From Butyrivibrio proteoclasticus (lineage in GTDB: Bacteria; Bacillota; Clostridia; Lachnospirales; Lachnospiraceae): a stretch of 64,000 nt of DNA. The number at the start of each line of letters is the position of its first letter. Position 1 is the first letter of the stretch. The stretch is from contig NZ_FOXO01000002.1 in assembly GCF_900115735.1 (NCBI RefSeq), positions 62,001 through 126,000 on the forward strand, given 5' to 3'. The position numbers were made by a program, and so were the translations under genes. Under the pieces are notes generated by a model. The model saw only the letters and a list, made by a program, of their open reading frames with translations, made no database searches and was not told the origin of the DNA. Below, in pieces: positions 3,084-30,706 of the stretch.

Positions 3084-4631
3084 ATGAGAGGTTCTAAACC
3101 AACAGTTCTTTTGATCCTTGATGGATACGGACTTAATGATAATCCGGAGGGAAATGCTATTGCTATGGCAAAGACTCCTGTAATGGATGGTCTTATGAAG
3201 GATTATCCTTTTGTAAAGGGATATGCTTCAGGTCTTGCTGTAGGTCTTCCTGACGGACAGATGGGTAACTCAGAGGTTGGACATATGAATATGGGTGCCG
3301 GCCGTATTGTTTACCAGGAACTTACAAGAATCACAAAATCTATTGAAGACGGTGATTTCTTTACTAATGAAGGTCTTTTAGCAGCTATCAATAACTGCAA
3401 AGAGAAAAATTCAGCTCTTCATTTATACGGTCTTGTTTCTGACGGTGGTGTACACAGCCACATTACACATATCTACGGACTTTTAGAGCTTGCAAAAAAG
3501 AACGGACTTGACAAGGTATTTGTTCACTGCTTCCTTGATGGCAGAGATACTCCACCTGAAAGCGGAATTGATTTTGTGGCTCAGCTTGAGAATAAGATGA
3601 AAGAACTTGGCGTTGGTCAGATTGCTTCTATTTCAGGTCGTTACTATGCAATGGACAGAGATAACAACTATGACCGTGTAGAGGTTGCTTATAACGCTAT
3701 CACAAAGGGTGAAGGCAACAAGGCAAACAGTGCGCATGAGTGCATGGAGCAGTCTTACAAGGATGGCAAGACAGATGAGTTTGTTATCCCTACAGTTATC
3801 ATGAAGAATGGTGCTCCTGTAGCAACAGTTAAGGATGGAGATTCAATTATTTTCTATAACTTCCGTCCAGACAGAGCAAGAGAGATCACACATTGCTTCT
3901 GCGATGATGAGTTTGATAAGTTTAACAGAGGAAAGCGTCTTGATGTTACATATGTATGCTTCACAGAGTATGATCCTCTTATCCCTAATAAGGAAGTTGC
4001 ATTTAAGAAGGTTCTTCTTAACAACACATTTGGCGAGTGGCTTGCTGCTAAGGGAATGAAGCAGGCACGTATCGCAGAGACTGAGAAGTATGCTCATGTT
4101 ACATTCTTCTTTAACGGTGGTGTTGAGCAGCCAAACGAGGGCGAGGACAGAGTACTTGTTAACAGCCCTAAGGATGTTCCTACATACGACCTTAAGCCTC
4201 AGATGAGTGCGCCTGAAGTTTGTGAGAAGATTCTTGATGCTATAAATTCTCAGAAATATGATGTTATCATTGCTAACTTTGCTAACCCTGATATGGTTGG
4301 ACATACAGGTGTTATTCCTGCTGCTGTAAAGGCTATTGAAACAGTTGATGAGTGTGTTGGCAAGATTGTTGATGCTGTAAAGGCAACAAACGGAACAATG
4401 TTTATCTGCGCTGACCACGGTAACGCTGATATGATGATCGATTATGAGACAGGTGAGCCTTGGACAGCTCATACAACAAATCCTGTTCCATTTATCCTTG
4501 TTAATTATGATGAGGCTTATACTCTTAGAGAGAATGGATGCCTTGCAGATATCATTCCTACACTTATAGAGTGTATGGGCGAGGAACAGCCAAAAGAGAT
4601 GACAGGAAAGTCACTTCTTATCAAGAAATAA
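3084..4631 (+). CDS. gpmI: 2,3-bisphosphoglycerate-independent phosphoglycerate mutase
   Basis: Interconverts 3- and 2-phosphoglycerate in glycolysis in the cytoplasm, using two Mn2+ ions and a phosphoserine intermediate. The 515-residue length matches the family. Visible landmarks are the metal-binding Asp13 (LLILDGYGLND), the phosphoserine loop GNSEVGHMNMGAGR with Ser63, SDGGVHSH, DGRDTPP, and the late metal site ICADHGNADMM. The ATG at 3084 is preferred over a GTG at 3063 because GGAGG (3070-3074) fits it. It has its own promoter upstream. The stop codon lies inside the left 8-base duplication of a MITE-like element, so the original 3' end of the transcript has probably been changed. Confidence 0.98.
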   Translation: MRGSKPTVLLILDGYGLNDNPEGNAIAMAKTPVMDGLMKDYPFVKGYASGLAVGLPDGQMGNSEVGHMNMGAGRIVYQELTRITKSIEDGDFFTNEGLLAAINNCKEKNSALHLYGLVSDGGVHSHITHIYGLLELAKKNGLDKVFVHCFLDGRDTPPESGIDFVAQLENKMKELGVGQIASISGRYYAMDRDNNYDRVEVAYNAITKGEGNKANSAHECMEQSYKDGKTDEFVIPTVIMKNGAPVATVKDGDSIIFYNFRPDRAREITHCFCDDEFDKFNRGKRLDVTYVCFTEYDPLIPNKEVAFKKVLLNNTFGEWLAAKGMKQARIAETEKYAHVTFFFNGGVEQPNEGEDRVLVNSPKDVPTYDLKPQMSAPEVCEKILDAINSQKYDVIIANFANPDMVGHTGVIPAAVKAIETVDECVGKIVDAVKATNGTMFICADHGNADMMIDYETGEPWTAHTTNPVPFILVNYDEAYTLRENGCLADIIPTLIECMGEEQPKEMTGKSLLIKK

Positions 4632-4635
4632 GACT

Positions 4636-4780
4636 GTTACTGTTCAGACAGAAATGCGCACTAAGCTGCGCATTTCGTGAGAACTTGATACGGGAGTGAG
4701 CGCATTCCATCGACGAAGTCGATTTGGAATGAATGCGCGAAGTGGTTACTGGAGCGAGCTGTATGCGAGTGAACAGTAAC
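4636..4780 (+). mobile_element. MITE-like palindromic element, copy 1
   Basis: A 145-base element bounded by perfect 11-base inverted repeats (GTTACTGTTCA at 4636-4646, TGAACAGTAAC at 4770-4780). It is flanked by an exact 8-base direct repeat, ATAAGACT, at 4628-4635 and 4781-4788, the mark of a transposition event. The left repeat includes the gpmI stop codon. Inside are a 10-bp hairpin (GAAATGCGCA 4651-4660 with TGCGCATTTC 4667-4676) and a second one (GCGCATTC 4700-4707 with GAATGCGC 4731-4738, inner ATCGAC/GTCGAT stem). There is no room for a transposase, so it must be moved in trans. The copy at 30548-30692 is identical over all 145 bases. The transposase family is not assigned. Confidence 0.9.
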
Positions 4781-4893
4781 ATAAGACTGTATTGTTTGAC
4801 GATATTGCATAAATATGATAGAGTAATATGTGCTTGTGACTTTAAATAATTAGCAAGACTATTTTTATACAGGTACTGGGAGGGAAGTTTTTC

Positions 4894-5136
4894 GTGAGTG
4901 CTTTAGATTATGTTTTCGGAGTAGTATTTATTATAGTATGTGCCGCATTGGTTGTTCTTGTACTTGCACAGGAAGGCAAGAATCAGGGACTTGGAGCAAT
5001 TCAGGGAACAATAGAGAATACATACTGGAGCAAAAACAAAGGCCGTTCAAGAGAGGGTGTTCTTAAGAAAGCTACATTTGTTTTATCAGTTTTGTTTATC
5101 GTAGTTAGCGTAATTCTCAACATGAATATGTTCTAA
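4894..5136 (+). CDS. secG: Protein-export membrane protein SecG
   Basis: An 80-residue subunit of the SecYEG translocation channel. It starts at a GTG with GGGAGGG nine bases upstream. Two hydrophobic membrane segments (about residues 4-25 and 57-77) flank a polar loop with the family hallmark LAQEGKNQGLGAIQG. Size and topology are typical of SecG. It is followed by rnr, smpB and ssrA, the usual Firmicutes arrangement, though a strong terminator separates it from rnr. The gap from gpmI (4632-4893) is mostly the MITE-like element; the remaining hundred or so bases are AT-rich and presumably carry the promoter, which I could not place with confidence. Confidence 0.95.
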   Translation: MSALDYVFGVVFIIVCAALVVLVLAQEGKNQGLGAIQGTIENTYWSKNKGRSREGVLKKATFVLSVLFIVVSVILNMNMF

Positions 5137-30531: not shown

Positions 30532-30547
30532 ATTAAATAGAATTTTA

Positions 30548-30692
30548 GTTACTGTTCAGACAGAAATGCGCACTAAGCTGCGCATTTCGTGAGAACTTGA
30601 TACGGGAGTGAGCGCATTCCATCGACGAAGTCGATTTGGAATGAATGCGCGAAGTGGTTACTGGAGCGAGCTGTATGCGAGTGAACAGTAAC
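30548..30692 (+). mobile_element. MITE-like palindromic element, copy 2
   Basis: Base-for-base identical to the element at 4636-4780 and in the same orientation: 145 bases, ends GTTACTGTTCA and TGAACAGTAAC, same internal hairpins. The flanks differ from copy 1, but here too an exact 8-base duplication is present, GAATTTTA at 30540-30547 and 30693-30700. It begins 17 bases after the nfnB stop and ends 14 bases before the old nfnB terminator. The identity of the copies and the clean duplications suggest recent movement. Confidence 0.9.
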
Positions 30693-30706
30693 GAATTTTA
30701 TCTATA

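Follow-up and report, generated by a model that had tools for sequence, protein, structure and literature searches.

What kind of element is a short sequence that occurs twice, base for base the same, in intergenic DNA of Butyrivibrio proteoclasticus, and what does its folded interior do? We addressed this for the window, the whole stretch of 64,000 nucleotides that was analyzed (GCF_900115735.1, contig NZ_FOXO01000002.1, positions 62,001 to 126,000). Its two 145-bp copies very probably represent a nonautonomous transposon, a miniature inverted-repeat transposable element (MITE), which an IS66-type transposase would mobilize, a conclusion drawn from sequence comparison. What is new here is a MITE family with a partner insertion sequence (IS), together with a structured core that lies outside Rfam and crosses element types.

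Anatomy of the two copies

A direct read of the window bore out several claims of an earlier reading made from the letters alone (the sequence-only reading). The copies at 4636-4780 and 30548-30692 are both 145 bases long and identical, with perfect 11-bp inverted repeats at their ends (GTTACTGTTCA / TGAACAGTAAC), and each has its own exact 8-bp flanking duplication, ATAAGACT for copy 1 (4628-4635 and 4781-4788) and GAATTTTA for copy 2 (30540-30547 and 30693-30700). The internal GTTACTG close to the right end of copy 1 (4745-4751), which had been proposed to pair with the terminal repeat, forms hairpin 3 with it. The features are listed below; R1 is the core model described later, and L numbers denote loci.

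4628..4635, no strand: left target duplication of copy 1, 8 bp, ATAAGACT; holds the TAA stop codon of the phosphoglycerate mutase gene
4636..4780, + strand: 145-bp element, copy 1
4636..4646, + strand: left terminal repeat GTTACTGTTCA; extended inward by three bases it reads GTTACTGTTCAGAC, the same as the left end of the L396 IS
4646..4743, + strand: conserved folded core; R1 match, 99.7 bits
4651..4676, + strand: hairpin 1, GAAATGCGCA-CTAAGC-TGCGCATTTC
4676..4691, + strand: conserved linker, CGTGAGAACTTGATAC; consensus CGTRAGAAnnTGA..C
4700..4738, + strand: hairpin 2, apical TCGAC-GAA-GTCGA, with a one-sided bulge
4745..4780, + strand: hairpin 3, GTTACTG ... CAGTAAC; its 3' arm is shared with the right terminal repeat
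4770..4780, - strand: right terminal repeat TGAACAGTAAC
4781..4788, no strand: right target duplication of copy 1, 8 bp, ATAAGACT
30540..30547, no strand: left target duplication of copy 2, 8 bp, GAATTTTA
30548..30692, + strand: 145-bp element, copy 2, identical to copy 1
30558..30655, + strand: conserved folded core of copy 2
30693..30700, no strand: right target duplication of copy 2, 8 bp, GAATTTTA

Copies, duplications, and empty sites

A search of the whole assembly (4,168,923 bases in 76 contigs) with the 145-bp unit recovered 17 full-length copies at varied sites, 10 of them identical to the query (both window copies counted), plus 2 partial copies. Exact 8-bp duplications flank 15 of the 17; the remaining two are L006, where 7 of 8 bases agree, and L016, where the second copy of the duplication is shifted by 2 bases. 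The duplications of those 15 all differ from one another, except for a pair on contig C33 that has GATTTGAT in common. In this pair (L009 and L010, C33:47065-47362), identical 145-bp units follow one another in tandem, separated and flanked on the outside by one and the same 8-base duplication. Another 22 matches in the genome span only bases ∼13 to 96 at 76 to 79% identity, and the 11 that we read are parts of other repeats.

Among the loci collected, pairs of ends lying 125 to 195 bases apart define 75 distinct insertions, with duplications matching at 8/8 positions in 46, 7/8 in 18, 6/8 in 4, and ≤4/8 in 7, so that 64 of the 75 have a duplication of at least 7/8. Matches to the 145-bp element were found in 29 of 99 sampled genomes (this one included), all of one genus, and a pattern taken from the element interior matched 77 stretches in titled genomes, every one from Butyrivibrio. 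The 145-bp query had no match in phage and plasmid collections.

Empty sites were sought for window copy 1, using 29 loci fetched from other genomes. The gap is empty, with a single copy of the target, in three related species (ATAAGACT in L233 and L235, ATAAGGTT in L234), the left flanks being 99% (L233), 89% (L235), and 97% (L234) identical. The same gap in a distant species (L260) holds a different copy of the family, which has a duplication of its own, ATCATACG.

These observations bear on an alternative in which the repeat is not mobile at all, an old intergenic sequence inherited vertically and homogenized by recombination. Some sites are indeed common to several species, and a few neighbors have exchanged flanks (L020/L074/L075), as such a history might leave. 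The empty sites with a single target copy already contradict it, and the different duplications at different sites and the 10 identical copies also oppose it; we regard it as scarcely credible. Units confined to orthologous sites, or 8-bp repeats conserved as part of the unit, were not seen. The element is instead short and without a transposase gene, with inverted terminal repeats, copy-specific duplications, near-identical copies at varied sites, and empty orthologous sites (window copy 1, three species), and an autonomous element with matching ends exists in related species, of which this genome holds only a relic. The sequence-only reading of the unit as a MITE therefore stands.

A probable IS66-type partner

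We searched for the IS66 transposase domain (PF03050) across the genus and examined 17 loci of a divergent group. No matching end pair was found in the classical, strong IS66 matches; the divergent, low-scoring group carries matching ends. The partner IS is 2,227 to 2,237 bp long, has inverted ends GTTACAGTTCAGAC or GTTACTGTTCAGA that agree at 17 to 19 of 20 bases, and is flanked by exact 8-bp duplications at five distinct sites:

L285 IS: duplication TCTTACTT
L386 IS: duplication TGCAAAAG
L388 IS: duplication ACAAACCC
L389 IS: duplication ATTTTTTT, low complexity
L396 IS: duplication TTCTATTG

L285 and L398 are the same insertion, and the other eleven of the 17 loci are cut by contig ends or lack a clean duplicated end pair. 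The L396 IS starts with GTTACTGTTCAGAC, which equals bases 1 to 14 of the MITE, so that the IS with like ends and 8-bp duplications for which the sequence-only reading had proposed a search was found, in related species. Two open reading frames (ORFs) are present in the L285 and L396 ISs, one of 98 aa and one of 568 or 566 aa. The 98-aa protein of L285 matched no family; the long ORF scored 69.3 bits (L285) and 54.5 bits (L396) against PF03050 (cutoff, 23.1).

Target duplications of 8 bp are typical of IS66, and classical members carry a tnpA-tnpB-tnpC set and GTAA-type ends. The partner IS resembles this family in its DDE_Tnp_IS66 domain, above the Pfam cutoff, and in its 8-bp duplications; it differs in having two ORFs (98 and about 567 aa), ends of the form GTTACWRTTCA, and an NCBIfam score under the cutoff.

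Transposition of the MITE and its relatives with GTTAC-type ends (type A, below) by an IS66-type transposase is, as judged from sequence, well supported. A DDE transposase of this type, supplied by an IS with like ends, would recognize GTTACTGTTCA at both ends of the unit and insert it into intergenic gaps, often directly past a stop codon, producing the 8-bp duplication. Several observations weigh against this account. A duplication is lacking in seven of the 75 end pairs; among the five IS duplications, ATTTTTTT is of low complexity; the L285 protein reaches 123.3 bits in the NCBIfam IS66 model, under its cutoff of 180, which makes the IS66 assignment distant; and no intact partner-type IS was found in this genome, where a copy could have been missed because the assembly is in 76 pieces. 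The sole PF03050 match there is a fragment with a 268-aa ORF and no left end, and because only this truncated relic was found, the source of the mobilizer in this genome is deduced from related species. The earlier statement that the window contains no transposase held for the two families checked: the only PF03050 match in the genome is on another contig, and none of the listed matches to PF01797 (Y1) is on the window's contig.

A folded core with covarying pairs

The interior had been described as almost entirely palindromic. Folding of the 145-bp element is indeed far beyond chance (RNA z, -5.2 on the + strand and -5.8 on the - strand; DNA z, -5.4; 0 of 200 shuffles as good), but the description is incomplete: the interior contains a covarying module that is common to repeats with other ends and was not found in the IS. 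This core of ∼97 bases consists of a hairpin, the linker CGTRAGAAnnTGA, and a second hairpin.

A plain sequence alignment of 29 diverse seed cores, chosen by a pattern that included the linker, was analyzed with RNAalifold, which gave 21 pairs, 18 of them with double changes. Model R1 was built from these 29 cores and used to align 106 matches from 94 chosen sources. In the 99 distinct rows, standard pairs fill 97.0% of cells, versus 68.2% in shuffled alignments, cells with double changes number 559 versus 161, and covariation is 0.71 versus 0.18 (≤0.10 with the partners slid by 1 to 3 columns); this 99-row alignment was fitted to the structure, which favors the pairing score, and the 21-pair count comes from the plain alignment. 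Among 59 rows below 90% identity, an additional covarying pair joins the first base of loop 1 to the next-to-last one (C.G in 40, T.A in 15, T.G in 1, other in 3), and 45 have a C-GNA-G triloop at the tip of hairpin 2. In the same 59 rows, the unpaired linker is nearly invariant (G59, T57, R59, A59, G58, A58, A58, two free positions, T59, G58, A57). This conservation is partly built in, because the seed-core pattern contains the linker; of 28 loci retrieved with the 145-bp BLAST query alone, without a linker pattern, 26 have CGTRAGAA close to the match.

Could the covariation be a by-product, with template switching at replication forks keeping the palindromes perfect and the module serving as passive filler? 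Arm-by-arm correction of palindromes is a known mutational mechanism, the scarcity of wobble intermediates fits one arm correcting the other, and the copies are repeats that are able to exchange sequence. The conserved linker, which is unpaired (57 to 59 of 59 at fixed positions, with the built-in part noted above), opposes this explanation, as does the hairpin-linker-hairpin order, which is kept under unrelated ends. We consider it unlikely.

No Rfam 15 family matched the core above its gathering score, either in window positions 4500 to 4900 or in 8 loci. The best match, GA-cis RNA (RF02987), covered hairpins 2 and 3 at 17.6 bits, well under its gathering score of 34.7. In the 8 loci, only Clostridiales-1 RNA exceeded its gathering score, and it lies outside the core. 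We considered a self-cleaving ribozyme, and no Rfam ribozyme matched. We also dropped the linker as a start codon (NTGAT) because, by eye, the frame beyond it is not consistently kept.

The core under other ends

In the window, R1 matches the two copies only; in its genome, there are at least 52 core matches. Across the genus, the core is present in 62 of 79 genomes, and 17 had no match at E 0.001 with stricter filters. In an order-wide sample of 295 genomes, 15 matched: nine of the genus, one from another genus with at least 14 matches, one with a single 60-bit match, and four with weak matches. The last four (32 to 35 bits; L299 to L302, from another genus of the family) comprise only hairpin 2 with its one-sided bulge and were not counted as cores; they are possibly part of a wider small hairpin motif. 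No R1 match up to E 0.1 was found in 17 loci with partner IS copies or fragments.

The core occurs in three settings. Type A comprises the element studied here and its relatives; their ends are of the GTTAC type, and their duplications are 8 bases long. Type B starts with words like ATGACTTCTT and ends in another hairpin. Among 24 type B copies, whose 3' ends, placed automatically, are approximate, at most one had an exact 5- or 8-base duplication at any offset tried, and AGT is favored before the start (A in 17, G in 17, and T in 14 of the 24). Type C lacks GTTACTG ends and lies directly before the next gene, for example, atpH. Of 106 distinct copies of all types, 105 are outside ORFs (simple ORF calling, ≥80 codons). 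Separately, type B copies at L020, L074, and L075 have exchanged flanks, which suggests recombination between repeats at separate sites.

Because the core is found in repeats with unrelated ends and not in the IS, one module appears to ride on several kinds of ends. We tentatively propose that a free-standing folded module of ∼97 nt parasitizes different transposon ends in turn, spreading through the genus in one lineage on IS66-type ends and in another on different, apparently duplication-free ones, and now and then settling in a host operon such as atp. If true, the core is transferable cargo that is not itself a gene and does not form part of the DNA of any transposase.

A different explanation takes the core as a host cis-regulatory RNA, riboswitch- or leader-like, that some transposons acquired. 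One or two cores that lack GTTACTG ends are found between atpF and atpH, directly before the ribosome-binding site, at L094 1471-1682 (this genome, contig C45), L308, L311, L313, L314, and L315, and those in the latter five are directly upstream of the atpH start. One atpH-adjacent hairpin has changed from AAATTT/AAATTT to AAAAAA/TTTTTT with pairing retained, and in L339, L340, and L343, cores fall, by eye, after a stop codon and before the start that follows. Against this, only 5 of the 29 atpF-atpH gaps that we read contain a full core, with a relic in 4 and none in 20; the downstream genes show, by eye, no common theme; and 17 of 79 genomes have no match at the threshold and filters given above. 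A host RNA as the origin of the core is therefore improbable. As to the relics, L309, L310, and L312 retain hairpin 1 only and L320 the last hairpin only. The atp operon at L094 contains the Clostridiales-1 RNA (RF01699, 97.9 bits) at 2246-2402, between atpH and the next gene.

How the core may be recognized

Our preferred reading is that the core is recognized as a folded single strand, given that few of its parts are as conserved as the unpaired linker. The core is a separate module that was not found in the partner IS and that, as Butyrivibrio evolved, has traveled with several kinds of ends; it would be kept since something recognizes its folded strand at the linker. The likeliest setting would be transcripts running through the insertion, with single-stranded DNA a close second.

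A fold recognized in RNA is a reading that we put forward with reserve. It is suggested by the position of the copies, which adjoin or lie between genes of the same direction. In the window, copy 1 starts 4 bases past the stop codon of the phosphoglycerate mutase gene, with secG and the ribonuclease R gene downstream, copy 2 starts 17 bases past the end of a gene matching NADPH-dependent glutamate synthase, and both cores are on the strand of the preceding gene. Three points weigh against RNA. The sense orientation is only mildly favored (of copies between same-direction neighbors, 42 read along and 28 opposite) and is reversed in one subclass, type A with one unclear end (4 along versus 8 opposite). 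G.U pairs are very rare, in 16 of 1,230 cells compared with 5 for A.C, which is unusual for RNA. Finally, the element folds about equally on both strands, and folding energy therefore gives no choice of strand.

The rarity of G.U pairs, the GNA loops, and tandem GA mismatches in hairpin 3 suggest a DNA setting instead. The module might act as single-stranded DNA hairpins, at replication forks or during transfer, recognized by a transposase or replication factor in the manner of IS200/IS605 or REP sequences, with the IS66-type ends added later. C-GNA-G triloops, found in 45 of the 59 nonredundant cores, are exceptionally stable in DNA; the tandem GA mismatches occur in 13 of 65 copies versus 0.7% in shuffles, although some of the 13 are near relatives and not independent; and type B has no consistent target duplication (24 copies, approximate 3' ends). 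The inverted ends and 8-bp duplications of type A speak against such a mode of action, as does the core's presence within 1.5 kb on either side in only 1 of 30 Y1 transposase loci of the genus. This alternative seems to us less likely than not. A link of the REP-RAYT type, tested with PF01797, was unsupported by the same 1 of 30 fetched loci.

Relation to known systems

Bacterial MITEs are usually viewed as shrunken ISs. Here, the interior appears foreign to the mobilizer, and it is conserved among repeats whose ends differ; this provides a concrete, testable case for MITE interiors as selected modules. REP/REPIN sequences, short multicopy intergenic hairpin elements that have a conserved unpaired motif at the foot of the hairpin, are associated with RAYT (Y1) transposases. 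The core shares the hairpins and the unpaired motif with them; it differs in that no Y1 linkage was found and in the 8-bp duplications of type A.

The bcr1-bcr3 repeats of the Bacillus cereus group are short multicopy intergenic repeats likened to MITEs, often in untranslated regions or between operon genes (PMC6542083, PMC3446304). Compared by these descriptions only, the Butyrivibrio element is likewise short, multicopy, and intergenic, and it has 8-bp duplications and an IS66-type partner. IStrons join a self-splicing group I intron to an IS, so that an RNA module occurs with different IS families (PMC4227781). The likeness is a module joined to different ends; the Butyrivibrio core is ∼97 nt long and has no gene or known catalysis.

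Searches of open-licence papers yielded no description of this element, or of a similar one in Butyrivibrio or associated with IS66. The major rumen genus Butyrivibrio gains a defined MITE with a likely transposase, and the family of structured elements can now be annotated with a model of the R1 kind.

Variants and remnants

In type A, the same 7-base word is present at the 5' end and in both arms of hairpin 3 (as the complement in the right arm), so that recombination between direct repeats could shorten the element. Several type B copies have, by eye, a similar but less exact relation of repeated words. At one site, a full element is present in a relative (L117) and only its last 27 bases in this genome (L031). 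This leftover is one of the solitary 11-bp ends in the genome; two others, L050 and L055, are parts of short elements of a second kind whose ends are the same, and no IS adjoined the solitary ends that were inspected.

Other loci show further rearrangement. A 66-bp derivative at L219 (1456-1521) lacks the full core; it retains both ends and is flanked by an exact 8-bp duplication, TGTACCTG. L016 in this genome and L100 in another species have the same site and the same duplication, GCGAATAA. The unit there is 145 bp long in L016, whereas L100 has one of 43 bp that belongs to another subtype; apparently, the interior was either swapped or trimmed in situ. L064, L072, and L110 have elements at one site common to three species, and in L072 the pairing of the last hairpin is retained, with GTCTGCA/TGCAGAC in place of the GTTACTG/CAGTAAC of type A.
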